Source: Candidatus Hodarchaeota archaeon (lineage in GTDB: Archaea > Asgardarchaeota > Heimdallarchaeia > Hodarchaeales > Hodarchaeaceae). From it: a DNA stretch of 41,922 nt. How positions within the stretch are numbered: position 1 is the stretch's first letter; the number at the start of each line of letters is the position of its first letter. The stretch covers positions 1 to 41,922 of the forward strand of contig JAEOTY010000323.1 in assembly GCA_016839625.1 (NCBI GenBank), given 5' to 3'. A program made the position numbers and the translations under genes. The notes beneath the pieces were generated by a model. The model had not been told where the DNA came from and made no database searches. It saw only the letters and a list, made by a program, of their open reading frames with translations. Positions 1-41,922 of the stretch are shown here, piece by piece.

Positions 1-2122
1 ACAATAGAGAATTAATATAGGGCTGAATGTAGATTGGAGCGTTAGTTAATACAGAAGAACTATCGGATTCAGACTCTATTCCATCGGACCAAACAGTGGT
101 ATCATATCCTTCTGTATCAAGCCAATCCAAAGCCAGTTCTATATTATAGCTATCAAAAGCTGTTGTTTCTCCTTCCTCTGGGATTGTGCCATCTGTTGCT
201 AATAATGATTGTTTATAAGTGATTAAATCTTCTTCAGGTAATGCTGCCCACGAGTTTTGGGGAAGTGGGGTATAAGCTGGACACGCTAATCCATTCAATA
301 AGTTCTCAACTATTGCTTGACGAGGGACGATGTGGGAAATCGCATGTCTTACTCCTTTCTTATTCAGGTGATAAATACCATTTTGTTCGAACTTTGGATT
401 AAAGTGCATTGCTTGCCACCCACTCTCTAATGTCAGAATAGGTCGAACTGTTGTTTCGGATTGGAGCTCGTCAAGAATGTTGGCCATTGTAAACTGGGGA
501 TCCATGACATTGACTCCACCAGTCTTCAAATCCGCGAGAGCAGAGTCCATAGTAGCAGTGATGACCTTAGCCTTGTTAGGCATTTTATTTAGATTGGCAA
601 TATTCCAGTGGTTGACAGTCGGATCTGCTACCCATGTACCACTAGCGTTATCCCATCTGGTTTGGTTGAATTTCTCAAGGGTAACATAAGCAGTAGTAGA
701 GTCGAAATCTTTAAAGATCATTTCTCCACAGCTAATGGGTCCAGGATAGCCACCTGGGTCAGTAGTTCGGCCTGTAGTGGTAGAGTGGTATTTCCAGTCG
801 GCAGGTTTACAAAGCCACGTATTATCGGGGTCAAAGTTCCCATTTGTATCGAAACCATGGTTGACTGGGTCGCCAAGAATATGTTCTGGGTAAAATGATT
901 GTCCTACATAGTCTGTCTCGAAAGGGGTAAAGGTTGTATTTAAGGTGATATTGATTCGCTCATAGTGACCATCGTCATTCGCGTCTGAGACTGTAAAGGA
1001 GTAATTACCATGCTTATTGGTTTTATCATCCTCACCAAATGGCACTCCTATGCGTGAGTGATAAAAAGCCACATCAGGAGTCATTGCTGCTTGGAAGCTC
1101 ATGGCGAGATCCCACATATCAGCCTTGTGTCCGTCATGGAAATAGATATCATCTCTCATATCAACTTGGTACGACAACCCGTCTGCAGAATAGTTACCCA
1201 TGCCTACTGCCATTCTTGGGTAAAGAGCTAGATAATCAGTGGTATTATAGTTGGTAGTCATCCAAGTAGCTCGATCTGTTCCTGTTGGGAGAACAACTTC
1301 TTCGGAAGGGGTGTTGCCATAAAGTCCATCAAAAGATTGGGCACTCATGTACTGATCATACACATCAGTAGCAATCATTGGGTTAAAGCAAGCGCCTGCA
1401 GTGCTTGCTGCTAGTACTACCTGGTCACCACCTTTATAATCAGATGTTGTCCACATATCTGGTATGGAAAGAAGTGGGTAGGGGTTAACAGGGTCGTATC
1501 CATAAAGGCCTGCACCAATGGCGTGCATCTCATACTGGTTATAGATTAATACACTAGGCATGACGTCATACCAAAGCTTTTGCCATTCGTATATGTTATC
1601 CTTCACCTCTGTGAGATTCCAATTATTATTGATCTCTTTGATAAGTTGATTTGATTCATTTGCCTGATAATTCATATAACTCCTTCCAATTGAATCTGTA
1701 CCAGGAGCCCAATACATAACATTAAATCCTGCTGGAGGGATTGCGTCTGCTCCATATACAGCCTGCATAGCTGCTCCAGGGTGCCCAATGGAGGTTCCTA
1801 GTGACATACCAAAGAAGCAGATATCATAACCACCTTCATCATATGTACCTACTTCTTGATCGGTTGCCCGGGGGCCCAATGCTGCCCAACTGATTAAATC
1901 CAACTCTGCATCAATACCAATTTTGGGAAATTCTTGTTCTATGAGTATTAGATATCGAAGTCGAGTACTAGATGTTGGTGCAAGTAGGTGAATTGAAAAA
2001 AAAGATTCTCGTTCAAAGGATTGACTTACAATTGAATATATTCGAGTCACTTTTGGTGCAAAGGGAGCCATCCCGATGATTATGACCAGAAGCACCCAAA
2101 TAGACCCTGAAACGACCCTCAA
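1..2122 (-). CDS. Family 5 solute-binding protein, tandem copy 1 (3' end outside window)
   Basis: This gene reads from a TTG at 2122 leftwards off the window edge, so it lacks only about 35 C-terminal residues compared with its neighbour at 2287-4518. I translated its first ~110 codons, a central stretch near 600-660 and the last ~40 codons; all are in the frame of the neighbour with no stop seen, and the total differs by two codons. It has the same start (MRVVSGS...), N-terminal membrane helix, and order of segments, with the C-lobe-type part first (EFPKIGIDAELDLISWAALG). It belongs to the SBP_bac_5 family, which binds oligopeptides or similar solutes outside the cell for ABC import. No permease or ATPase is adjacent. 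The TTG start is supported because both copies share it at the same distance from a TATA-like box. Substrate is unknown. Confidence 0.82.
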   Translation of the reverse strand, partial: MRVVSGSIWVLLVIIIGMAPFAPKVTRIYSIVSQSFERESFFSIHLLAPTSSTRLRYLILIEQEFPKIGIDAELDLISWAALGPRATDQEVGTYDEGGYDICFFGMSLGTSIGHPGAAMQAVYGADAIPPAGFNVMYWAPGTDSIGRSYMNYQANESNQLIKEINNNWNLTEVKDNIYEWQKLWYDVMPSVLIYNQYEMHAIGAGLYGYDPVNPYPLLSIPDMWTTSDYKGGDQVVLAASTAGACFNPMIATDVYDQYMSAQSFDGLYGNTPSEEVVLPTGTDRATWMTTNYNTTDYLALYPRMAVGMGNYSADGLSYQVDMRDDIYFHDGHKADMWDLAMSFQAAMTPDVAFYHSRIGVPFGEDDKTNKHGNYSFTVSDANDDGHYERINITLNTTFTPFETDYVGQSFYPEHILGDPVNHGFDTNGNFDPDNTWLCKPADWKYHSTTTGRTTDPGGYPGPISCGEMIFKDFDSTTAYVTLEKFNQTRWDNASGTWVADPTVNHWNIANLNKMPNKAKVITATMDSALADLKTGGVNVMDPQFTMANILDELQSETTVRPILTLESGWQAMHFNPKFEQNGIYHLNKKGVRHAISHIVPRQAIVENLLNGLACPAYTPLPQNSWAALPEEDLITYKQSLLATDGTIPEEGETTAFDSYNIELALDWLDTEGYDTTVWSDGIESESDSSSVLTNAPIYIQPYINSLL

Positions 2123-2286: not shown

Positions 2287-4518
2287 TCAATCTAAAGACT
2301 TTTTGTGTCTTCTCTGATAGATTAAAATCGATATAATTCCCGTTAAAAGAATCCCCCCAAAGAAAACATTTGGATCACTTGATACTAATGACAATAGAGA
2401 ATTAATATAGGACTGAATGCTGATTGGAGTATAAGTTAATACAGAAAAACTATCGGATTCAGAATCCATTCCATCAGACCAAACAACAGTATCATATCCT
2501 TCCGTATCAAGCCAATCTAAAGCGAGTCTTATATTATAGCTGTCGTAAGCGGTCATTGCCTCCTTTTCTGGAGTAGAACCATCTGTAGCTGTAACAGTTT
2601 TCTTATAGGCTAGCATTTCTGTATCCAAAATAGCTCCCCATGAAGTGATTGGTACAGGTGTGTATGCTGGGAGAGCGAGACCGTTCATGAGGTTAGTGAT
2701 AATATCTTCACGGGGAACTATGTGAGAAATCGCATGGCGTACACCCTTCTTATTCAAGTGATAGACACCATCTTGTTCAAATTTTGGATTGAAATACATT
2801 GCTTGCCAACCAGTTTCGGGTGAGAGGATTGGTTGAATGGAGGCATCGGCTTGGAGTTCGTCCAGAATGTTTGCCATCGTGAACTGGGGATCCATAATGT
2901 TAACAACACCAGTCTTCATGTCCGCGATAGCTGAATCCATACTTGCAACGATGACCTTGGCAGTGTCAGGCATATCACCTAGATTGTTAATATTCCAGTG
3001 GTTAACAGTGGTATTTGTGACCCATGCACCAGTTGCATTATCCCATTTAATATTCTCAAATTTCTTGAGAGTAACTGTACTTGTCGTAGAATCAAAATTC
3101 TCAAAGATCATCGAACCACAACCAATGGGGCCTGGGTAGCCACCTGAATCAGTGGTTCGGCCTGTAGTAGTGGAATGGCTTCGCCAGTTGCCTGGTTTGC
3201 ATAACCAAGTCGTGTCTGGGTCAAAGTCCCCGCTTGTGTCGAATCCGTGGTTAACAGGATCGCCAAGAATATGCTCGGGGTAGAAATTCTGCCCTACATA
3301 GTCTCCCTCGAATGGAGTAAAGGTTGTAGCTAAGGATATATTGATTCGCTCATCGTGTCCATCGCCATTCGCGTCTGAAACTGTAAAGGAGTAATTCCCA
3401 TGTCTAGCGGTTTTGTTATCCGTACCAAAGGGTACTAATAAGTTCGAATAAACCCTACTAGCAACAGCGGGAGTCAAATGTGCTTGGAAGCTCATGGCAA
3501 GATCCCACATATCAGCTTGGTGTCCATCATGGAAATAGACATCATCTCTCATATCAACCTGGTACGTTAACCCGTCTGCAGAGTAATTACCCATTTTCGT
3601 TGCTATTCGTGGGCAAACGGCTAGAGGTTCTGTGGTACCATAGTTGTCAGTCATCCAGGTCTCTCGGTTTGTCCCTATTGGTAGAACAATTTCTTTGGAA
3701 GGAGTTCTGCCATAGAGTCCATCAAAAGATGTTTGACTCATGTACTGATCATACACATCAGTAGCGATCATTGGGTTAAACACTTGGCCTCCTGTGCTTG
3801 CTGCTAGTACTACCTGGTCACCACCTTTATAATCAGCCGTTGTCCACATATCCTCTATAGCTAGGAGAGGATAAGGATTAACTGGGTCGTATCCATAAAG
3901 GCCTGAACCGATGGCGTGTACTTCATATTGATTGTAGATGATAATATTGGGCATTACATCGTACCAGAGTTTTTGCCAAGTTTTCACGTCCTCTTTCACT
4001 TCTGTGAGATTCCAATTATTATTGATCTCTTTGATAAGTTGATTTGATTCATTTGCCCGATAATTCATATAACTCCTGCCAAAGGAATCTGTACCAGGAG
4101 CCCAATACATGACATTGAATCCTGCGGGAGGAATCCCCTCTGTTCCATATACAGCCTGCATAGCTGCTCCAGGGTGTCCAGTAGGAGTTCCCAGTGACAT
4201 ACCGAAGAAAGCTATGTCATATCCCCCTTCATCATATGTTCCCACTTCCGCATCAGTGCATCTAGGGCCTAAAGCTGCCCAACTAATTAGATCTAACTCT
4301 GCATTGATACCAATTTTAGGAAATTCATCTACTATTATCACTGAATGTTGCGTTCGGACAGAACCTGATGTTGGTGCTATTAGATGCACCGAAAAAAGAA
4401 ATTCGGAATGAGAAGAATCGCTTATCGCTGAGCAGGTTTGGATCATTCTTGGTATAAAGAGAGCTATTCCGATTATTCCGATCAAGAACACCCAATCATA
4501 CCCCGAAATAACTCTCAA
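2287..4518 (-). CDS. Family 5 solute-binding protein, tandem copy 2, circularly permuted order
   Basis: A 743-residue extracellular binding protein with a TTG start, an N-terminal hydrophobic helix (about 9-27) and a C-terminal helix (about 718-734) followed by a basic tail. Residues 40-230 resemble the last third of ordinary SBP_bac_5 proteins: a strand like those starting the C-lobe, then FPKIGINAEL, GGYDIAFFGMSLG, WQKLWYDVMPNIIIYNQYEV and LYGYDPVNPYPLL. Residues 235-676 follow with the normal beginning and middle: VFNPMIATDVYDQ, SFDGLYG, SADGLTYQVDMRDDVYFHDG, GVRHAISHIVPREDI, NGLALPA and finally LALDWLDTEGYD, where the usual C-lobe should begin but the anchor comes instead. The family binds peptides or comparable solutes for ABC import; the actual ligand is unknown. 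It is divergent from the hydroxylase genes at 4654. Confidence 0.88.
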   Translation of the reverse strand: MRVISGYDWVFLIGIIGIALFIPRMIQTCSAISDSSHSEFLFSVHLIAPTSGSVRTQHSVIIVDEFPKIGINAELDLISWAALGPRCTDAEVGTYDEGGYDIAFFGMSLGTPTGHPGAAMQAVYGTEGIPPAGFNVMYWAPGTDSFGRSYMNYRANESNQLIKEINNNWNLTEVKEDVKTWQKLWYDVMPNIIIYNQYEVHAIGSGLYGYDPVNPYPLLAIEDMWTTADYKGGDQVVLAASTGGQVFNPMIATDVYDQYMSQTSFDGLYGRTPSKEIVLPIGTNRETWMTDNYGTTEPLAVCPRIATKMGNYSADGLTYQVDMRDDVYFHDGHQADMWDLAMSFQAHLTPAVASRVYSNLLVPFGTDNKTARHGNYSFTVSDANGDGHDERINISLATTFTPFEGDYVGQNFYPEHILGDPVNHGFDTSGDFDPDTTWLCKPGNWRSHSTTTGRTTDSGGYPGPIGCGSMIFENFDSTTSTVTLKKFENIKWDNATGAWVTNTTVNHWNINNLGDMPDTAKVIVASMDSAIADMKTGVVNIMDPQFTMANILDELQADASIQPILSPETGWQAMYFNPKFEQDGVYHLNKKGVRHAISHIVPREDIITNLMNGLALPAYTPVPITSWGAILDTEMLAYKKTVTATDGSTPEKEAMTAYDSYNIRLALDWLDTEGYDTVVWSDGMDSESDSFSVLTYTPISIQSYINSLLSLVSSDPNVFFGGILLTGIISILIYQRRHKKSLD

Positions 4519-18493: not shown

Positions 18494-19537
18494 CTAAAGC
18501 AAGGAGGGTTCTATAGTTGCTGTCTCATTCCCAGCAGAGCCATTCGGGAGTATCAGTGCTTCCCTTTGATACATCTCTGTCTGTACCAAATTGACCGATG
18601 CCTGCTTTCGTTGAGCGATATTGAATGAGGCATTGACATCAGCATGGTCAACGTGTCCACATAGACACTTAAATTGCTTGGCCATTCGAGAGCCAATACG
18701 TCCACATCTACTACAGGTCTTAGAAGTATTTCGTGGATCAATATAAGCGATTGGTATTCCATGCAGCTTGGCTTTATAATCAATAAAGTTTTTTAATTGA
18801 TAGAACGACCAACTGTTCAACAAATACTTGAATGACTTATTTATTTTGGCTGTTTTACGAATATTCTTTAAATCTTCTAGCACTATTCCAGCATTGTTTT
18901 CTTTAGCTATTTCAATGATTTTTCGACTGATCTTATGATCCAAATCTTTGATAATACTCGATTCACGTCTTTTTACTTGTTTTAGTTGTAAATTTATTCC
19001 TTGTATCTGAAACATTCGTCTGATCTGCATATATTTTTTACGAATATGAAGTGCTTTTTTACCTAATTTATACACCTTACCGTTTGAAGGTACCCCAACG
19101 ACTGCACAATGACCAGTAGTATTCAAATCAACACCAATCCACTTATTATCATTATCGATTGGTATTGGTTCTAGCACTGTGACTGAAACAAAGATATATT
19201 GGTTATTAACCTCTATCTGATTGATTTTTCTGAAATTGTTTGGAAATTGATAATAAAAAGATAACTTCAGACATGGAATGCGAATGTTTCTTGCTTTCTT
19301 ATCAACCTTAATTCCTTGATTTGGTATGATTAGATTAACACTGCTAACCCTTTTCATCTTCTTATTTCGTCCGTATTTTCGTAGGATTTGATTGGCAATC
19401 ATGGATTTTAGTCCAAGGTGTTTAACATCTTTTGAGGAGAACGTACACTGTTTAAGTGTGAACTCTGCCACTTTTAGTGCTTTTACAAGTTCAGAAGAAT
19501 AATCCTTGTTATGCTTGACTTTATAGGTCAAAATCAT
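18494..19537 (-). CDS. tnpB: TnpB, RNA-guided nuclease of the IS605/IS1341 group
   Basis: A 347-residue TnpB with intact RuvC residues: D137 in GVDLN, E221 in IVLEDLKN and D300 in HADVNAS. The zinc finger (CSRC ... CLC) has C-x-C instead of C-x2-C in its second half. The open frame extends to a TTG at 19723, but ATG 19537 is preferred: AGGAG lies 11 bases before it and the protein then starts MILTYKVKHN, a usual TnpB N-terminus. No TnpA transposase is present, so this is an IS1341-type stand-alone gene. TnpB uses a guide RNA from the element's right end to cut DNA next to a short motif. Stop is TAG. Confidence 0.9.
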   Translation of the reverse strand: MILTYKVKHNKDYSSELVKALKVAEFTLKQCTFSSKDVKHLGLKSMIANQILRKYGRNKKMKRVSSVNLIIPNQGIKVDKKARNIRIPCLKLSFYYQFPNNFRKINQIEVNNQYIFVSVTVLEPIPIDNDNKWIGVDLNTTGHCAVVGVPSNGKVYKLGKKALHIRKKYMQIRRMFQIQGINLQLKQVKRRESSIIKDLDHKISRKIIEIAKENNAGIVLEDLKNIRKTAKINKSFKYLLNSWSFYQLKNFIDYKAKLHGIPIAYIDPRNTSKTCSRCGRIGSRMAKQFKCLCGHVDHADVNASFNIAQRKQASVNLVQTEMYQREALILPNGSAGNETATIEPSLL

Positions 19538-19540
19538 ACA

Positions 19541-20144
19541 TTCTTTTGCTCCTGTATATAGGACACTGGTATGGTACGTTAAAGGCTGCAACGTTTCTTT
19601 CGCTGTTGGACATACATGTGATAAATATTCAAGGTAGCGAAATTGTGTGAGTACACTAAACTTTGCAGATTGACGAGAAGCTTTTCTTGTTAATAAATTA
19701 GGAGACCTCGTTATCCAAATCAAACGGGGATATTTGCTAATACTATAGAGTGAGGACGTAGGTTAATCCTTTGTTTTATCCTTAATTTCATGAGAGCGGT
19801 CAACTATAAGGTTGTAAGGATGACCAGAGTTTTACAACCTCCTCTTTCATGATTCTGTATCCTTTCTCCACACATTCTCTTAGAATATTTACCCTTATTT
19901 GTCTATATTTGTCGATAAATTAGTTGGCTGTTAACAACCCCTCTTTCAAGGACGGTTAACTGAAAGATAATGAAAATATGACATTTTTCACAAAAATAGT
20001 TTATTATTTTCTTTTTATTTTCTTCAACCTTGTGGGAAGTAAAGATTTTTCTCAACAGAAAATTTTTTTAGAATTATTTATCGATTGTTACCCTTCTATG
20101 GAGAAACCCATAGGAAAAAATACTTCCAGAAAAAATAACCTTAA
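19541..20144. other. Gap between tnpB and cyclase gene; likely left end of the TnpB element
   Basis: No convincing gene. The part up to 19723 continues the tnpB frame without its motifs. Beyond it are a 9-bp inverted repeat (19809-19840), a second repeat pair of GTTAAC (19930-19935 and 19955-19960), and a near-identical direct repeat, ACAACCTCCTCTTTCA at 19834 versus the same with one T missing at 19934. From about 19960 the sequence becomes very A/T-rich and probably holds the promoter of the gene at 20145. Confidence 0.5.
19809..19840. repeat. Perfect 9-bp inverted repeat near TnpB left end
   Basis: AGGTTGTAA (19809-19817) and TTACAACCT (19832-19840) flank a 14-base loop. Subterminal hairpins mark the ends of IS200/IS605 elements, and this lies upstream of tnpB where a left end is expected. 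An operator or terminator is the alternative. Confidence 0.4.
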
Positions 20145-24457: not shown

Positions 24458-26239
24458 CTAAGTTCTTTCCTCCACAATACTCCGAAATTCTTCCAAAAGA
24501 ATTCGCAGATAATCAAAACCAGCTTGCCAAAATTCGGGTTGGGAAATATCTAATCCAACAGAAGCAGCTAAATCAACAGGGAATTTTGATCCTCCTGCTT
24601 CGAGAATTTGTTTGAATTTCGGAACAAAAGTTTTTCCTTCCTCAAGATACTTTTGATATAAACCTAATACAAAAAGCATGCCAAAAGAATAAGCATAACA
24701 GTAAAAAACCCGTTTATCCAAGAAATGAGGGATGGTTGCCCAATTCCAACTTTGTTCTGGTAAAAACGCCACTGCATCACCATAAGCATCGTTTACGTGT
24801 TTGTCCCAGATATCTGACATCTTTTTTGCGGAAAGGTTTTCCTTTGCTCCTGATTCTTGACACTCTTTCTCCCAAATGACATACATAGTTTGTCTAGAAA
24901 TCGTTATGATTGCATCTTCCAACTGACTAGACAGGAGACGTAATTTTGCTTCCTTATCAGTCATGATTTTTAACAATTTATCAATAAGGATCTGTTCACC
25001 GAAAACGGAGGCAGTTTCTGCTGCAACTGTGGGAGGATTATAGTTCAATATGGTTTGTTTTCGCCCACTGAACATATCGTGAAGGCCGTGGCCTAATTCA
25101 TGTGCAAGAGTACTAATCCCATTTAATTTACCATCAAATGATTGGTGAATAACTGGATCTAGATCTGGAGATATACCCTGACAAAATGCCCCAGTCATTT
25201 TTGTTTTTCGGACTTCTGAATCTATAAGTTTCCGATCAAAGAAAGAGTTGGTCATTTCACCGACCTCCTCATCAAATTCGGTGTAAGCTTCAAGAACTAT
25301 TTTTTTTGCTTCATCCCAGGTATATTTCATGGTTTTACCTAAAGGTGCATAGAGATCTGATCCTTTAATTTTCTCTCCTTGCCCCATCAATCTTGCTTTT
25401 AATTTATAATAATCTTGGACAAATGAATAATTTTTCTTAATTACTTCAATCATCGTTTCAACGATTTTTTCATCAGTTTGATTTCTTATGTGAGCTGGAG
25501 TCATTGTTGTAGGAAACTTCCGTAGCTCAGTATCCTGACCACGATTCTTCCAAATATTATTGAATGCGTGACTTATTGCAATGGATTGATCAGCATATTT
25601 TTGATAATAAGCCTTGAAAACATTTTCTCGTGTTTCTGGGTTTGGATCATTAAAAAAGGGGTAGATTTCCCCATGTGACATAGTTTTCATTGCCCCTTCG
25701 ATTTCGACTTGATACTGAAATGAGGCTGTAAATTCATTGTAAAAATTATACCAAGCAAGTACACCGACCAATTCTTTCTGGGAAAGAACCTGTTCAACCT
25801 CTTCTGTAAGTATATAGGGTTTGGAAAGCCTTTGAACTCTAATATAATGATGATAATTCTCTAAGACCGGATCTGCTAAATATCTCTCTACCGTCTTATC
25901 AGACATTTCATTGATTTCAACTTTTATCCAGATTAGTTTATTTGAAACATCTACAGCTCGTGCCTCAACCTTACTATACAGGGCCTTATGATCGTCGTTC
26001 GTTGTTTCTTGAGCAAAGAGAAGAAATCCATATGCTTCTCCTCTATCAGCTAGGGTGTGGACTTTTTCTAACTGCTGGAAAAATTCAAGTAGTTCTTTAG
26101 ATGATAATTCTCCGCTTTTAATTTTACCACGGTAATTAGCTAAGTCATCCGCGAATTTTTCAGCTTGATCCATATCTTCTTCAATTTTTGGATCATCAAA
26201 TCCTTTGTAGATGAATGAAAGATCCCATTTTTCTGTCAA
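24458..26239 (-). CDS. pepF: M3-family oligoendopeptidase F, copy 1
   Basis: A 593-residue cytosolic zinc peptidase. HELGH at 380-384 gives two zinc histidines and the catalytic Glu381; Glu408 in AAETASVF is the third zinc ligand, 24 residues on, as in M3 peptidases. N-terminal helices (about 10-200) cover the typical PepF_N domain. The protein lacks a signal peptide. PepF enzymes cut oligopeptides of roughly 7-17 residues after uptake or proteolysis. The paralogue at 26280-28061 has the same length and lies 40 bases upstream on the same strand; both are probably one transcript. Stop is TAG. Confidence 0.95.
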   Translation of the reverse strand: MTEKWDLSFIYKGFDDPKIEEDMDQAEKFADDLANYRGKIKSGELSSKELLEFFQQLEKVHTLADRGEAYGFLLFAQETTNDDHKALYSKVEARAVDVSNKLIWIKVEINEMSDKTVERYLADPVLENYHHYIRVQRLSKPYILTEEVEQVLSQKELVGVLAWYNFYNEFTASFQYQVEIEGAMKTMSHGEIYPFFNDPNPETRENVFKAYYQKYADQSIAISHAFNNIWKNRGQDTELRKFPTTMTPAHIRNQTDEKIVETMIEVIKKNYSFVQDYYKLKARLMGQGEKIKGSDLYAPLGKTMKYTWDEAKKIVLEAYTEFDEEVGEMTNSFFDRKLIDSEVRKTKMTGAFCQGISPDLDPVIHQSFDGKLNGISTLAHELGHGLHDMFSGRKQTILNYNPPTVAAETASVFGEQILIDKLLKIMTDKEAKLRLLSSQLEDAIITISRQTMYVIWEKECQESGAKENLSAKKMSDIWDKHVNDAYGDAVAFLPEQSWNWATIPHFLDKRVFYCYAYSFGMLFVLGLYQKYLEEGKTFVPKFKQILEAGGSKFPVDLAASVGLDISQPEFWQAGFDYLRILLEEFRSIVEERT

Positions 26240-26279: not shown

Positions 26280-28061
26280 CTATGTTCTTTCCTCAACAAT
26301 TCTTCGAAAATCTTCCAAGAGTTTCCGAAGATAATCAAAACCTGCTTGCCAAAAATCTGGTTTAGTTAAATCTAATCCAACAGAAGCAGCCAGATCAATA
26401 GGAAATTGTGATCCACCTGCTTCAAGAATTCTCTTGTACTTTGGGATAAATATTTGCCCTTCTTCACGATATTTTTGATAGAGGCCTAGAACGAATAGCA
26501 TTCCGAATGAGTAAGCATAACAATAAAACACGCGAGGATCTAAAAAATGTGGGATGGTGGCCCAATTCCAGCTCTGCTCTGGTAAAAAATCCACAGCGTC
26601 GCCATACGCGTCTTTAACGTGTTTATCCCAGATATCTGACATTTGCTTGGCAGACAGGTTCTCTTTTGCCCCTTTTTCATGACATTCTCTTTCAAAGAAA
26701 ACGTACATCGTTTGGCGGGAAATAGTCGCAATTGCATCTTCTAATTGGCTAGCAAGAAGTTTTAGCTTTGCTTCTTCGTCTTTCATGATTTTTAATAGTT
26801 TCTCAATGAGAATTTGCTGACCAAACACCGATGCGGTTTCTGCGGCCACAAGGGGCGGGTGAAAGTTGAATAAAGTCTGTTTTCGGCCACTAAACAGATC
26901 GTGGAGGCCATGGCCCAATTCATGAGCTAATGTACTGATCCCATCTGCTGTACCATCATAAGACATGTGAATGACAGGATCAAAATCAGGAGCGATACCT
27001 ACACAAAACGCACCAGTCCTTTTAGTTTTTCTCACTTCCGAGTCAACCAAGTTCCGCTGAAAAAATCCGTCTATTATATCACCAATCTCTGAATCAAATT
27101 CTTTGTAGGCATCTAAAACCATTTGTTTTGCTTCGTTCCAGGTGTACTTGATTACCTTCCCAAGAGGGGCATAGAGATCTGACCCTTTAATTTTCTCTCC
27201 TTGTCCCATTAATTGTGCTTTTAATTTGTAATAATCTTGTACAAGAGAATAATTGTTTTTAATTATCCTCATCATGGTTTGGACAATTTTCTCATCAGTT
27301 TGGTTTCTAATGTGAGCTGGAGTCATAGTAGTGGGATACTTTCTGAGATCAACATTTTGACCATGATTTTTCCAAATATTGTTAAAACAATGACTTATTG
27401 CTATAGAATTTTCAGCATATTTCTGATAATAAGTCTTGAAGACTTTTTCTCGTGTGTCAGGATTTGGATCACGGATTAGCGGATATATTTCTCCTGGTGA
27501 CAATGTTTTTATTTTCCCTTCGATTTCAACTTCGTATTGGAATGCTGCAGTGTATTCTTGATAAAATTTAAGCCAAGCTTCATTACCTACAAGTGATTTC
27601 TGTAATAGAACTTGTTCCACGGGTTCTGAGAGCAAATAAGGCTTTTGTAATCTCTGAACTTCTATAAAATGATGATAATTTGATAATAATGGATTTTTGA
27701 GATATTTTTCGACTAATTTTTCTTGAAGATCATTTAATTCTAATGTAATCCATATCAATTTATTTTGAATTTCAACCTCTTGCTGTTGCATTTTTGCATA
27801 AATTGCTTTATGATCTTCATTGGTTGTCTCTTGTACAAAAAGCAGAAATCCATATCCTTCTCCTTTTGAAACTAATGTTTGAACTTTTTCGGTTTGCTGG
27901 AAGAGTTCAAGCAACTCTTGCGCTGATAGTTCACCATTCTTCAATTTTCCACGATATTTATTCAATTCATCAGCGATTTCTTTGGCCTGATTCAAATCTT
28001 CATCAATCTCTGGATCATTAATTCCTTGGTACAAAAAGGAAAGATCCCATTTGCTAGTCAT
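26280..28061 (-). CDS. pepF: M3-family oligoendopeptidase F, copy 2
   Basis: A 593-residue tandem paralogue of the gene downstream, alignable end to end without a gap. The zinc site is the same: HELGH at 380-384 and Glu408 in AAETASVFGQQ. Differences cluster in surface-type positions of the N-terminal half (for example MQQQEVEIQN versus VEARAVDVSN), while the catalytic domain and the C-terminal CYAYSFGMLFVLGLY segment are nearly identical. This suggests duplication with changed substrate range or dosage. It is the first gene of the pair; the 429-base gap upstream would hold the promoter. Confidence 0.95.
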   Translation of the reverse strand: MTSKWDLSFLYQGINDPEIDEDLNQAKEIADELNKYRGKLKNGELSAQELLELFQQTEKVQTLVSKGEGYGFLLFVQETTNEDHKAIYAKMQQQEVEIQNKLIWITLELNDLQEKLVEKYLKNPLLSNYHHFIEVQRLQKPYLLSEPVEQVLLQKSLVGNEAWLKFYQEYTAAFQYEVEIEGKIKTLSPGEIYPLIRDPNPDTREKVFKTYYQKYAENSIAISHCFNNIWKNHGQNVDLRKYPTTMTPAHIRNQTDEKIVQTMMRIIKNNYSLVQDYYKLKAQLMGQGEKIKGSDLYAPLGKVIKYTWNEAKQMVLDAYKEFDSEIGDIIDGFFQRNLVDSEVRKTKRTGAFCVGIAPDFDPVIHMSYDGTADGISTLAHELGHGLHDLFSGRKQTLFNFHPPLVAAETASVFGQQILIEKLLKIMKDEEAKLKLLASQLEDAIATISRQTMYVFFERECHEKGAKENLSAKQMSDIWDKHVKDAYGDAVDFLPEQSWNWATIPHFLDPRVFYCYAYSFGMLFVLGLYQKYREEGQIFIPKYKRILEAGGSQFPIDLAASVGLDLTKPDFWQAGFDYLRKLLEDFRRIVEERT

Positions 28062-29985: not shown

Positions 29986-30873
29986 ATGACCCTTTTGTCT
30001 GTCAAAGTATTTGACATCAATAATAAAGAATTATACTCCAGTGTTTCAATTTCCAATGATCTTTGGTTTTATAATTTGATTCCATACCTTGGGAAATTGG
30101 CACGAGAATCTGAACGTGAACAGGTTCAAGCTTTAATATATAACAATTATTTGATCGCTTTCTTTAATATCCTTCCAGAAAATTCTTTATTAGTAGCAAT
30201 TGCCAGTGTTAATACTTCTCTTCGGAAGCTAGAACATTTTCTCGGACTTCTCAGTCACACAATGCAAAATTCCAAAAGATCATTGGAAAATTTTCAAGAT
30301 GTATGTGATTCAATTATTCGGACCGTTGATTCACACCAAGAAGTGAAAATCTCCCTACTTGGTCTTGAACGCTCTGGAAAGACGACTTTTGTGAACTCCT
30401 TCGCAAAAGACCGACCTCTTGCCGAATTTGAAGCATATTACCCTACTTCTCTTCTGAATATTGTTAGAATGGAGCACATTCATGATCTACCACCAATAAC
30501 CTTCTTTGACCTTGGTAAAGCCTTCAGTCAACAATGGTGGAGGTTTTCTTCTGAATCTGATGGTTATATTTATTTTGTGGATAGCTCAGATTCACATCGG
30601 ATGAAACAGGCTCAAGTATTATTACAAGAACTACGTAATTTCTGGGATCTCCCATTTGTTATTGCAGCAAACAAGATTGATGTCTGTAGAATAACAAACG
30701 TAAAGAAATATATTGGGCGAAAATTTCAAGTTTCTAGCCGAAAAGTCTATGAAATTAATACTTGGACAGGGACTGGTATTCTTCCTCTTCTAAAAGGACT
30801 TATTAATAATGAAATAGAAGGAACAAAAATATCTGTTTCCTTGGTTCATCCAACTGAAAAAATGACCGGATAA
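29986..30873 (+). CDS. Longin/roadblock-like domain fused to Arf-type small GTPase
   Basis: A 295-residue protein. Residues 1-115 form an alternating strand/helix domain resembling longin or roadblock folds. Residues about 118-280 are an Arf-family G domain: G1 GLERSGKT (126-133), switch-I PTSLLNIV with T154 like Arf PTIGFNVE, G3 DLGK (175-178), G4 NKID (229-232) and INTWTG as G5. The segment after DLG is one residue short and lacks the glutamine of Arf DVGGQ, so intrinsic GTP hydrolysis may be slow or need a partner. No N-terminal myristoylation-type glycine is present. Such fusions are characteristic of Asgard archaea, where GTPases with longin/roadblock modules are proposed to act in membrane organisation. 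Confidence 0.88.
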   Translation: MTLLSVKVFDINNKELYSSVSISNDLWFYNLIPYLGKLARESEREQVQALIYNNYLIAFFNILPENSLLVAIASVNTSLRKLEHFLGLLSHTMQNSKRSLENFQDVCDSIIRTVDSHQEVKISLLGLERSGKTTFVNSFAKDRPLAEFEAYYPTSLLNIVRMEHIHDLPPITFFDLGKAFSQQWWRFSSESDGYIYFVDSSDSHRMKQAQVLLQELRNFWDLPFVIAANKIDVCRITNVKKYIGRKFQVSSRKVYEINTWTGTGILPLLKGLINNEIEGTKISVSLVHPTEKMTG

Positions 30874-37588: not shown

Positions 37589-38680
37589 TTGGTCATGGCT
37601 GATATTAGTGAATCCATCCCCCAAGTTGAATCTGACTTCCGTGATTTTCTTAAATTTGTAATTAAAAGAGCGTTTCGGGCAATACCAGTAATTTTAGGTA
37701 TTGTAACGATTGTTTTCATCCTATTTCGTGTTCTTCCTGGTGATGTTGCTAAAGAATTAGCGGGTAAATATCCTACTCCTGAGAAAATAGCAGCTATAGA
37801 GAGGAAATGGGGTTTAGATAAGCCTACATGGGAACAATACATTATATTCCTGCAAAAATTATTTTTTGAATTTGATATAGGTATATCCTATATTCATTCT
37901 ACTCCCGTAATGTATGAATTGGGTAATCGCTTCCCTGCTACTATTGAATTAACTTTGGTTTCAATGTTATTAGCAAGCATTATTGGCATACCAATAGGAA
38001 TTATTTCAGCATACAAACAACACACTAGAATAGATTATCTTACTATGATTATTGCTTTAGTCGGAGTAAGTATGCCAATTTACTGGTTGGGACTTATGCT
38101 TCAAGATATCTTTGCAAAAAATCTCGGATGGTTCATAGGCAGCGGAAGAATCAGTTCAGTATTAAGTGCCGATTTACATAAATATACAAATTTTTATCTT
38201 ATTGATTCCTTCATTGTAGGAATTACAGAAGGGAATTGGGTATTCTTCAATTCAACGGTTAACCAGCTTGTTTTACCATCGTTGGCTTTAGCTACGATCC
38301 CATTAGCCGTTATTGCTAGGATGATGCGCTCTTCTATGCTTGAAGAGCTAAGAAAAGATTATGTGCGAACTGCTCGTTCAAAAGGGCTAAAGGAACGGCT
38401 AGTCGTAATAAAGCATGTCACTAAAAATGCTATGATTCCAACAATAACTGTAATCGGGTTAAATTTAGGTGCTTTATTGGCTGGGGCGGTCTTAACTGAG
38501 ACAATTTTTTCATGGCCAGGTGTTGGCAAGTTTGTGTGGGAAAGTATCACTAAGAGAGATAGTCCAGTCATAATGGGCTTTGTTATGATAGTAGCTTTCA
38601 TTTTTGTGATTGCAAATATGATTACAGATATTATATACGCTTATTTGGATCCTAGAGTTCGATATCATAAAAGGGATTAA
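37589..38680 (+). CDS. dppB: Peptide/nickel-type ABC permease, DppB family
   Basis: A 363-residue inner permease of a peptide importer. After a cytosolic lead comes the first helix (AIPVILGIVTIVFILFRVLPGD, the classic DppB beginning), then the loop with PGDVAKELAG...WGLDKPTWEQY and five further helices. The EAA-type coupling loop is RTARSKGLKERLVVIKHVTKNAM. The end, ITDIIYAYLDPRVRY, is typical. TTG 37589 gives the longest frame; ATG 37595 two codons later is the more natural start. The downstream DppC gene begins two bases after the TAA. The ATPases of the system are not in the window. Confidence 0.95.
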   Translation: MVMADISESIPQVESDFRDFLKFVIKRAFRAIPVILGIVTIVFILFRVLPGDVAKELAGKYPTPEKIAAIERKWGLDKPTWEQYIIFLQKLFFEFDIGISYIHSTPVMYELGNRFPATIELTLVSMLLASIIGIPIGIISAYKQHTRIDYLTMIIALVGVSMPIYWLGLMLQDIFAKNLGWFIGSGRISSVLSADLHKYTNFYLIDSFIVGITEGNWVFFNSTVNQLVLPSLALATIPLAVIARMMRSSMLEELRKDYVRTARSKGLKERLVVIKHVTKNAMIPTITVIGLNLGALLAGAVLTETIFSWPGVGKFVWESITKRDSPVIMGFVMIVAFIFVIANMITDIIYAYLDPRVRYHKRD

Positions 38681-38682
38681 AA

Positions 38683-39618
38683 ATGAAAGAAGACAAAATA
38701 GCCGATGAGGGCTTAGATACTGTGGCAGAAGTTTCTGGAGCATCGACATGGCATATCATCATCAAAAGATTTCGTCGTAATCAGGCTTCCCTTGTTGGGC
38801 TTTCTATTTTAGGATTTTTCTTTATTTTAGCTCTCATTTCTTTTCTTGATGAGTTTCTGTACACTTATAATCTCCCTACAATTTTTGCCTTTGGACCAAA
38901 TGACATTTTTGCAGGAGGTGCTTCAAGTTTTGAACCACCTTCGAATAAACACATCTTCGGGACTGATAATGTTGGACGAGATATCTTTGTTCGTATAATA
39001 TATGGAGCTCGTATATCAATAACAGTGGGTTTCTTGGCTGTACTTGTCTCACTTTCAGTAGGAACATTTTTTGGGTTATTAGCAGGGTATTTTGGGGGAA
39101 TAATAGATTCGATGATTTCAATTGTCCTTGAAATATTACTTGCCTTTCCAGCAATTCTTTTAGCTCTTGCTATTTTAGTTATTTTAGGGAATAATCTCCA
39201 AAATGCAATGTTAGCCGTTGGAGTTGTTTACATTCCCTACTATGCTAGAATTGTAAGAGGACAGACCTTTGTTGAACGTGAGTTAACATATATTGAAGCT
39301 GCGAAGGTTTTAGGCGCAAAAACACCCCGAATTCTTTCAAAACACATTCTTCCTAATGTTCTTGGTGTATTAGTTATCTATACAACTTTAGGTATCGGAA
39401 CAGCAATATTAGAAGTAGCTGCTTTGAGTTTCCTTGGATTAGGCGCTTTACCCCCAACAGCTGAGTGGGGGTCAATGATAGGTGACGGACGGAAATATTT
39501 TGCTTCTGGTCCACACCTGGTTTTTTTTCCTGGAATGGCTATTTTGTTGACTGTTATATCATTTAATTTAGTCGGTGATGGTCTACGTGAAGCTTTAGAT
39601 CCTAGATTTAAGAGATAA
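38683..39618 (+). CDS. dppC: Peptide/nickel-type ABC permease, DppC family
   Basis: A 311-residue partner of the DppB-type permease. Family marks are FRRNQASLVGLSILGFF at the first helix, HIFGTDNVGRDIFVRIIYGARISI, the coupling loop YIEAAKVLGAKTPRILSKHILPN, and the closing ISFNLVGDGLREALDPR. Both permeases form the channel through which the solute-binding protein delivers peptides. A GGGAT ribosome-site-like sequence lies at the end of dppB. The gene is followed after 14 bases by a membrane protein of unknown function. The protein is standard length and complete. Confidence 0.96.
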   Translation: MKEDKIADEGLDTVAEVSGASTWHIIIKRFRRNQASLVGLSILGFFFILALISFLDEFLYTYNLPTIFAFGPNDIFAGGASSFEPPSNKHIFGTDNVGRDIFVRIIYGARISITVGFLAVLVSLSVGTFFGLLAGYFGGIIDSMISIVLEILLAFPAILLALAILVILGNNLQNAMLAVGVVYIPYYARIVRGQTFVERELTYIEAAKVLGAKTPRILSKHILPNVLGVLVIYTTLGIGTAILEVAALSFLGLGALPPTAEWGSMIGDGRKYFASGPHLVFFPGMAILLTVISFNLVGDGLREALDPRFKR

Positions 39619-39632
39619 AGAGAGGAATCACC

Positions 39633-40580
39633 ATGAATTCCCAACCAATACCTGAAGAATTACCAGACGAAACCTCGGAGATTACTCCTGATACATCACA
39701 CCAAGTTAAGCAACCAAAGAAGGAGATCATCATTCTTCAGAGCGTAAAGATTCTTTTTCTTATTTTAGGTGTGTTTTTTACCTATACTATATTAATAATT
39801 GCATATGGAGATGAGGCTCTGGTAAAATTTCTTAAAGGCATCTCTATCAAGAATTTTATTGAAATTTTAACTGATTTAAACCTTACGGAGCTAATAGTCT
39901 GGATTTATTTCGTAGTACTATTTGGAGTCTTTTATTACATCAATAATATTGGAAAACAAAAATTAATTTTTCCACATCTTAATATTAAACAACAAACAAT
40001 AGTCTCAGGTGCTATTAGGTATTTTCGTGAGGGTTCTTTTACACTTCCTTTTGTTGTCATGGTTGTATTTCCAATGGTGTTACAAGTAATTCTTCCTGGG
40101 CTAATTGATATAGTTGCGGTGGTAGAGCTGTTGATTCCCTTTATCTTTATTGGAGAACTTTATCGTATTTCTGAGGAAAATCTAAAAAAATTATTCAAAA
40201 ATCAAGACGGAATTAAGCAAGGACCACGGTTAATTCTAGAACGTCTTATCGGAGTAGTTCTCGCGTTTCCTCTCATTGTTTTTATCCTTATGGAGTCTGG
40301 TCTTGATCGTTTTCTAAATCTTGTTCATTATCTTTTCTTATGGCCAAATCCAAGAAGTCCAATTGCTTTAGCTTTTTGGGATGTACTTAACAGCGTTATT
40401 TCAATCAACACTTTCATTAGTTCTTTTTTTGAGATCAGCATTGGAAGTGTTGTACTGAAATACTATATAGTTACTTTTGTAATGTTAGTTATTACAAGCA
40501 AGCTGTATCTCATTCTTAAACGGATTATCAGAGTTCATAGCATTCGACAGATTGAGAGATTTGTATTGACCTATCAATGA
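39633..40580 (+). CDS. Multi-pass membrane protein of unknown function in the permease operon
   Basis: A 315-residue protein I do not recognise. The first 32 residues are acidic and polar, then six or seven hydrophobic segments follow (ILFLILGVFFTYTILIIAY, LIVWIYFVVLFGVFYYI, FVVMVVFPMVLQVILPGLI, VELLIPFIFIGEL, VVLAFPLIVFILM and YIVTFVMLVITSKLYLI). A conserved-looking amphipathic stretch RYFREGSFTLP lies after the second helix. There is no ATP-binding or catalytic motif. GAGAGG eight bases before the ATG and the 14-base gap after dppC indicate co-transcription, so it may be an accessory of the peptide transporter. Confidence 0.8.
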   Translation: MNSQPIPEELPDETSEITPDTSHQVKQPKKEIIILQSVKILFLILGVFFTYTILIIAYGDEALVKFLKGISIKNFIEILTDLNLTELIVWIYFVVLFGVFYYINNIGKQKLIFPHLNIKQQTIVSGAIRYFREGSFTLPFVVMVVFPMVLQVILPGLIDIVAVVELLIPFIFIGELYRISEENLKKLFKNQDGIKQGPRLILERLIGVVLAFPLIVFILMESGLDRFLNLVHYLFLWPNPRSPIALAFWDVLNSVISINTFISSFFEISIGSVVLKYYIVTFVMLVITSKLYLILKRIIRVHSIRQIERFVLTYQ

Positions 40581-40657: not shown

Positions 40658-41922
40658 TTATCTTCTCTTCTTTCGGTATAAAACAACTAAAACTGCGAAT
40701 CCACCAAAAGTAGTGACTAGCGCTGTTAAGGGGTCTGGTCCAGTTGCTCTTCCACCTTTAACTGAGTAACCTAGATCTTGTAGAATTTCTCGTGCATGAT
40801 CTTGGTCAAATGCATAATCCTCAATAGAGTCATTAAAACCCCAGAACGAGGGTGGAAGTGGATTTTTAGCTTGTATGGCACGTCCTTGATATACTTCTTC
40901 AATGATTTTGCTTCTATTAATAGCATAGTGGAATGCTCGTCGTACCAAAGAAGCATGAGTGGTTTTCCCACCGAAATCAGGATCATCTTCTTCAGTAGTG
41001 TCATTGAACGGATATCTTAGCGCATTCATGGCTAAATAACCGACATTCATACCAGCTTGAGAGACCAATGACACCCCAGTAGCGTCTTCAACAGCTTTAG
41101 CATCAGTTGCTGCAACATTGTCAACAATGTCGACTGTTGGAGTAGCAGCTGTTAACCTTGATATTCTTGTAGCTGCTTCTGTGATTACCTCGAATATGAG
41201 CTTATCCGACTTTGGTTGAGGGCCCCAATAATCTGGATTCGCTTCCAGTGTGATGGTTGCATCTGATACCCATTCTGTCATGTTATAAGGACCAGTACCA
41301 ACAGGATTAAGACCAAGGCGATCTATTTCTTGAGTTCCATTGTGTGCTTTGACATACTCTGGACTTACTATCGCAAAAACACCCATAGAAAGGCTAGCTA
41401 AGAAAGGAGCATATGGTTTAGCCATTGTGAATTTAACAGTGTATTCGTCAACTTCTGTTACTGAAAGACTAAGGCCACCGTAAATATAGTCATAATAACC
41501 AGCTTCAGGGGGAACCCAGCCGTTCTTTTTGTAGATAGACGTATTATCATCCCAATACTTAGCTCGCTCAAAACTGAATTTGACCGCTGAGGAATTAAAT
41601 TTAGAACCATCTTGGAATTTCACGCCTTCTTGAAGGGTAAAAGTCCATTCCAATCCGTTTGCCGATACAGTATAACCTGTTGCTAAAGCAGGTTCGGGAT
41701 CAAGTGAATCAGCAGGAAGGTTGTATAAACCATCGTAAATCTGACGTCCTACTTTCCATGATTGACCATCTGTCCATTCTGCAGGATCAAGAGTTACTGC
41801 GTCTCCACCACGAGCAACAATTAACGTTTGATTTGTCCCAGCCTTCGTGACATTGGCGTATACATTTGCACCTTGACCAGTAGGATTGGTTACATATCCA
41901 GTAATACCAGAAGCAACACCAG
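40658..41922 (-). CDS. Family 5 solute-binding protein, C-terminal part (5' end outside window)
   Basis: The frame is open to the right edge, giving at least 421 residues; the first TTG after the edge (41653) is internal. Visible parts: LIVARGGDAVTLDPAEWTDG, the normal mature start of peptide-binding proteins, EWTFTLQEGVKFQDGSKF, NPVGTGPYNMTEW, LEANPDYWGPQP, VRRAFHYAINRSKII and HAREILQDLGY. The chain then ends after a short linker with a membrane helix and KKRR, so the usual C-lobe segment of ~200 residues after the LGY point is missing. Before LIVARGG it reads ITGYVTNPTGQ, resembling the end of such a segment, so the same permuted order as at 2287 is possible. It converges on the permease operon and probably serves it. 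Confidence 0.9.
   Translation of the reverse strand, partial: GVASGITGYVTNPTGQGANVYANVTKAGTNQTLIVARGGDAVTLDPAEWTDGQSWKVGRQIYDGLYNLPADSLDPEPALATGYTVSANGLEWTFTLQEGVKFQDGSKFNSSAVKFSFERAKYWDDNTSIYKKNGWVPPEAGYYDYIYGGLSLSVTEVDEYTVKFTMAKPYAPFLASLSMGVFAIVSPEYVKAHNGTQEIDRLGLNPVGTGPYNMTEWVSDATITLEANPDYWGPQPKSDKLIFEVITEAATRISRLTAATPTVDIVDNVAATDAKAVEDATGVSLVSQAGMNVGYLAMNALRYPFNDTTEEDDPDFGGKTTHASLVRRAFHYAINRSKIIEEVYQGRAIQAKNPLPPSFWGFNDSIEDYAFDQDHAREILQDLGYSVKGGRATGPDPLTALVTTFGGFAVLVVLYRKKRR

Follow-up and report, generated by a model that had tools for sequence, protein, structure and literature searches.

Gene A, a 743-aa open reading frame (ORF) in the window (the whole stretch of 41,922 nucleotides that was analysed, from a Candidatus Hodarchaeota archaeon), encodes a family 5 solute-binding protein (SBP) of the DppA/OppA type (cluster C) whose chain is circularly permuted; very likely it is exported and would serve an importer as a flytrap. 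Family 5 SBPs are among the best-studied nutrient-capture proteins. The gene runs on the minus strand from a TTG start at 4518 to a stop at 2287-2289, and on the plus strand the frame is not open across this interval. The features of gene A and of its tandem neighbor, gene B, are listed below, with DppA positions here and throughout given in the numbering of the E. coli DppA precursor.

2287..4518, minus strand: gene A, circularly permuted family 5 SBP, 743 aa (ORF, PF00496, profile-profile comparison)
4417..4503, minus strand: gene A, hydrophobic helix at the N-terminus, aa 6-34, interpreted as a signal peptide (hydropathy and a helix in the model; signal peptide by reference to family members)
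3883..4383, minus strand: gene A, normal C-terminal part, placed first, aa 46-212, equivalent to DppA 380-521 (profile-profile E 3e-9, Pfam)
3823..3882, minus strand: gene A, joint of ~20 residues, aa 213-232, that connects the native C-end to the native N-end (gap between two profile matches)
2494..3822, minus strand: gene A, N-terminal and middle part of the normal order, now last, aa 233-675, equivalent to DppA 28-368 (profile-profile E 2e-23, Pfam model 4-279)
2293..2376, minus strand: gene A, membrane helix at the C-terminus, aa 715-742, with basic residues behind it, interpreted as an anchor (hydropathy, helix 716-742 in the model)
2..2122, minus strand: gene B, tandem copy of gene A, 74% identical, in the same permuted order and cut by the contig end (ORF, Pfam, alignment)

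Chain order and breakpoint of gene A

The PF00496 model matches gene A with 99.3 bits (cut-off 32.4). The match is divided between two regions of the protein, of which the first corresponds to the C-terminal part of the model; the canonical chain order is absent, and a single collinear match, which the sequence-only reading had named as the observation that would count against permutation, did not occur. When the C-terminal 509 aa are scanned alone, aa 303-676 match model positions 4-279 (E 2e-24); aa 44-116 scanned alone match positions 290-355, a match that is weak by itself (E 0.0038). A phmmer comparison of aa 46-212 with B. subtilis AppA is also weak (E 1.2). Comparison of a 10-sequence gene A profile with a profile of normal-order SBPs (E-values refer to this one comparison and not to a database) matched both DppA 28-368 and DppA 380-521, and both lobes are therefore complete, with the fold covered once and its order swapped. 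The chain of gene A ends at the equivalent of DppA ~368, after which the membrane helix follows. In the profile-profile comparisons, the breakpoint at DppA 368/369-380 is common to the gene A family, to Heimdallarchaeal SBPs and to the DppA-like type described below, and it falls where it had first been placed, at the strand after the LALDWLDTEGYD helix. The split Pfam match, the profile-profile comparison and the Asgard relatives agree with the original proposal of a complete family 5 fold in the wrong order. On sequence evidence, gene A is a permuted variant of a family 5 SBP rather than an ordinary member.

The AlphaFold model of gene A is of fair quality (pLDDT 77.5, pTM 0.76). Family 5 SBPs predominate among the PDB matches listed by Foldseek; the TM-scores of these matches are low, which is the expected outcome when a permuted chain is aligned sequentially. 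The predicted structure supports the fold family but not the chain order.

Proposed structure and tethering

We propose that the two lobes of gene A would fold as they do in DppA, with the flytrap kept. Both native termini of DppA lie in the same lobe, and a short joint of ~20 residues can therefore link them. The new termini would then lie in the C-lobe, where both the signal peptide and the anchor would attach, and the C-terminal membrane anchor would leave from the C-lobe instead of the N-lobe. The sequence-only reading had described a membrane helix at both ends and a binding domain tethered twice. Hydropathy bears out the helices (~aa 1-30 and 715-736), but the double tether is doubtful: the N-termini of relatives resemble cleavable signal peptides, with LPALAA before EE in L022 and VQA before SEK in L006, and a haloarchaeal relative (L194) has a lipoprotein-like signal (...GLAGCGG). 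Judged by these sequences, the N-terminal helix of gene A probably acts as a signal peptide rather than as a second anchor, and, because the relatives carry typical signal peptides, one C-terminal anchor appears likelier than a tether at both ends. The protein would be exported via this signal peptide, close on its solute and pass it to a DppBC-type importer.

Evidence on the proposed importer role

No dpp permease or ATPase genes were found adjoining genes A and B, and we infer the importer function of gene A by analogy with its relatives. One of these relatives lies in the window itself, in the following locus.

40658..41920, minus strand: N-lobe part and C-terminal anchor of a second, DppA-like permuted SBP (Pfam, profile)
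37589..38680, plus strand: DppB-like permease (phmmer 2e-86)
38683..39618, plus strand: DppC-like permease (phmmer 1e-70)
39633-40580, plus strand: predicted membrane protein, 315 aa, between dppC and the DppA-like SBP, without a Pfam match

This second SBP is permuted at the same residue as gene A. Its first part (the normal C-terminal part) lies at the end of contig C115, which overlaps the end of the window exactly over 111 bases. When the window and C115 are joined, the locus reads dppF, dppD, SBP, dppC, dppB, an arrangement that the own genome has in common with L117 and that, read from gene order, is the best evidence for permuted SBPs serving importers. Full-length relatives from the same genus (L069) and from Ca. 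Hodarchaeum mangrovi (L022) run from DppA ~371-526 to ~29-368 (E 4e-77 for L022), are 35% identical to DppA over ~490 residues once de-permuted, and keep both R383 and D436, the dipeptide-binding residues of E. coli DppA (PMC12136057). The substrates of the DppA-like permuted protein of the window are very probably dipeptides or short peptides. Among the solved homologues listed, matches to a protein of this type cover halves of it, and none runs end to end. The end part of another DppA-like permuted SBP lies at L182:8738-9838 (minus strand, G000:C114); in it, repeated Ig-like segments separate the SBP part from the C-terminal helix.

Importer genes accompany permuted SBPs in other genomes as well. 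Two loci of G031 (L126, L127) are complete operons in which SBP, B, C, D and F follow each other in one direction with the permuted SBP first, and permuted SBPs are located opposite dppBC or dppBCDF in G005 and G047 (L128, L129).

In the alignment, the gene A family has no counterparts of R383 and D436, with a gap and other residues in their places, and gene A may bind something other than a dipeptide. The gene A family could also be permuted but serve no importer, having expanded as a surface receptor, adhesin or sensor. The absence of the dipeptide-binding residues and the lack of a permease beside genes A and B would fit such a role, as would the long C-terminal additions of some family members (e.g., L009, a protein of 1083 aa) and the presence of at least 11 family loci against ~five DppB-like permeases in the own genome (a draft MAG, 83% complete). 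We nevertheless consider this role unlikely. Several SBPs can share one permease: in P. aeruginosa, five DppA-type SBPs serve one dppBCDF (PMC4206461). Moreover, related permuted SBPs of other lineages are located in importer loci. An importer-serving SBP thus remains our preferred reading of gene A.

Elsewhere on the minus strand of the window, two tandem genes (24458-26239 and 26280-28061) encode peptidase-like proteins of 593 aa each, which have an HELGH motif and resemble oligoendopeptidase F; they are consistent with peptide use, though not a test of it. The window also encodes a TnpB-like protein (18494-19723, minus strand; PF07282 Cas12f1-like TNB domain), probably derived from an IS605-type element, and an Arf-family small GTPase domain (29986-30873, plus strand; PF00025) behind an N-terminal extension of ~110 residues, which is notable as an Asgard GTPase.

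Origin of the two halves and distribution among Asgard archaea

A fusion of unrelated or separately inherited domains, in which a new N-terminal domain was joined to a truncated SBP, is a very improbable source of gene A. The N-terminal part alone has only the weak Pfam match given above, which speaks for such a fusion, but by profile it matches the C-terminal part of normal SBPs. In addition, the N-part and the C-part of the DppA-like type, placed in separate trees, each cluster with bacterial DppA (support 88 and 98), and therefore both halves of this type come from one gene; these half trees rejected a fusion of unrelated halves.

The swapped order is shared widely. The PF00496 match to gene B is split as in gene A, with the end of the model leading, and six other full-length loci in the own genome have the swapped order and can be aligned with gene A over the entire length. 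The order extends across Heimdallarchaeia, including the closed genome of Ca. Heimdallarchaeum endolithica PR6 (L027, CP084167). A look for the same order in other Asgard genomes, which the sequence-only reading had proposed, identified 57 ORFs in up to 34 Asgard genomes or records with both parts, the swapped order and the breakpoint of gene A, a count of sampled loci rather than a census, in which some loci overlap and a few genomes stand under two labels. Because the tandem neighbor, the six loci in the own genome and the Heimdallarchaeal relatives share the order, it is not an assembly error in gene A. Although tandem SBP genes and normal-order tandem fusions do occur in Asgard genomes and could in principle be misread through mis-assembly, a frameshift or a misplaced start, we regard this as the least credible explanation, since many genomes, the closed one among them, contain single frames of one SBP length that have a signal-like N-terminal helix and, in most cases, a C-terminal anchor, as do complete plasmids of cultured strains.

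The same order outside Asgard archaea

Outside Asgard archaea, our sample consisted of plasmids, which we searched for matches spanning the junction and checked with profiles. The search rejected a restriction of the order to Asgard archaea. Swapped order was found in Haloarchaea (Halobaculum, Halomarina, Halalkalicoccus jeotgali, Natrinema and Natrononativus) and in Alphaproteobacteria (Roseomonas, Neorhizobium, Ketogulonicigenium and Nitratireductor). A Maritalea protein, whose N-lobe part begins at aa 203, also appears to belong here, an assignment made by the N-lobe part only. When the Roseomonas protein was used as query, at least 80% of it was found in one place in 52 plasmid records, and nearly all of the matches listed among these are in one piece. 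Four one-piece matches of the junction-spanning search (L195, L197, L198 and L199) turned out on checking to be normal-order proteins. The permuted SBPs of Halalkalicoccus, Ketogulonicigenium, Natrononativus and Natrinema lie within complete ABC operons (SBP, two permeases, ATPases), and the haloarchaeal and alphaproteobacterial proteins are annotated merely as "ABC transporter substrate-binding protein." The permuted SBP of Ketogulonicigenium vulgare is encoded at L205, 4893-6569, and that of Halalkalicoccus jeotgali at L203, 3887-5536. The first reading of gene A as a permuted member of its family holds but is too narrow, given the second permuted SBP in the window and those of Haloarchaea and Alphaproteobacteria.

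Other breakpoints, tandem fusions and number of origins

Different breakpoints occur in other permuted SBPs. The chains of a second permuted group start at DppA ~225 and end at ~228 (profile matches E 1e-34 and 5e-19), and full-length members of this group occur in many Asgard genomes, including two from the same genus as the window. Its members comprise L129:1850-3730 (plus strand) and L134-L153, some of them inside ORFs of 1258-2597 aa. A third breakpoint, at DppA ~301/305 by profile-profile comparison, is found in L057:556-2583 (minus strand, G145), a close copy of which in G145:C156 is split into two ORFs. An OppA-like protein on Subdoligranulum plasmid OY725879.1 (L193:903-2690, plus strand) is apparently permuted near OppA ~158/160; no second plasmid record among the matches listed has this order in one piece.

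Normal-order tandem SBP fusions (N-C-N-C in one ORF), with a short linker or none, are present in other Asgard lineages (L100, L101, L102, L073 and L110). Tandem fused SBPs reach 1817 aa (e.g., L101:286-5274, minus strand, and L102:992-6442, plus strand) and carry a C-terminal remainder matched to nothing named. Since such fusions exist in Asgard relatives, duplication is by analogy a plausible origin of the permuted order: the order of gene A probably arose through tandem duplication, after which new start and stop sites came into use. A direct trace of this duplication had been seen in the similarity of the two ends of gene A. That similarity is at the level of chance (shuffle P = 0.40), is equalled in score by 24 of 80 internal windows and is missing in most paralogues. 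In L098 the two profile matches overlap by 10 positions, but the similarity of its ends is not significant either (P = 0.23).

All trees came from quick searches and have long branches and a root that is not known. In one tree of de-permuted sequences, most permuted SBPs, whatever their breakpoint, lie on one side of a branch with support of 98, and the DppA-like type, L098 and L193 fall outside. Four normal-order Heimdallarchaeal proteins (L059, L064, L115 and L116) are nested inside the permuted group, and a tree that excludes them from it is rejected (AU test, P = 5e-6); the order has therefore either reverted or changed more than once. The separate grouping of both parts of the DppA-like type with bacterial DppA suggests that this type was permuted independently, at the site also used by the large group. 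A tree that joins the two was rejected with one data set (P = 0.0008) and not with a larger one (P = 0.085). The permuted order of Asgard archaea, salt-loving archaea and some bacteria probably arose more than once. We hypothesize, at roughly even odds, a history in which family 5 changed its order repeatedly. One lineage shared by Asgard archaea, Haloarchaea and Alphaproteobacteria would have been permuted, then re-permuted at DppA ~228 and ~303, and would have become canonical again in some Heimdallarchaea; the DppA-like type would represent a second permutation event at the same residue. Tandem arrays or fusions would act as the switch, and the tether would move from lobe to lobe.

Comparison with known systems

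Artificial circular permutation is a standard tool for making sensors from binding proteins. A naturally permuted lineage would allow a direct test of how far docking and import depend on chain order, termini and tether site, and permuted SBPs exist not only in Asgard archaea but also in cultured Haloarchaea and Alphaproteobacteria. It also provides a natural case of seemingly recurrent permutation, with tandem fused copies still present in relatives. Annotation is affected as well: family models match permuted SBPs in halves and may label them truncated. Of the seven permuted proteins tested, none reached the cut-off of the NCBIfam equivalogs (DppA, OppA, NikA, GsiB, SapA and Opp4A), and no NCBIfam model for permuted family 5 SBPs was found.

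Compared with E. coli DppA and the other cluster C family 5 proteins (PF00496: DppA, OppA, AppA and NikA), the permuted SBPs are homologous over nearly the whole length, and the DppA-like members share R383, D436 and the dppBCDF neighborhood; the difference is the circularly permuted chain, broken at DppA ~368/369-380. As anticipated, no description of a natural permuted family 5 SBP was found in the literature searched, which lay mostly outside subscription journals. Natural permutation among SBPs is already known from structures of the glycine-betaine SBPs OpuAC and ProX, which are circularly permuted relative to each other (PMC2395249). These resemble the present case in that respect but are smaller proteins of another SBP cluster, outside family 5. 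For permutation by duplication, as in saposin/swaposin and DNA methyltransferases, tandem fused copies are predicted as functional intermediates (PMC3320104). Asgard relatives likewise have tandem SBP fusions, in normal order; unlike the intermediates of that model, the fused forms found are not direct ancestors of the gene A family. Against these systems, what is new is a family 5 case that we did not find described and that is wider than first thought, and its most interesting part is the likely recurrence of the permutation.
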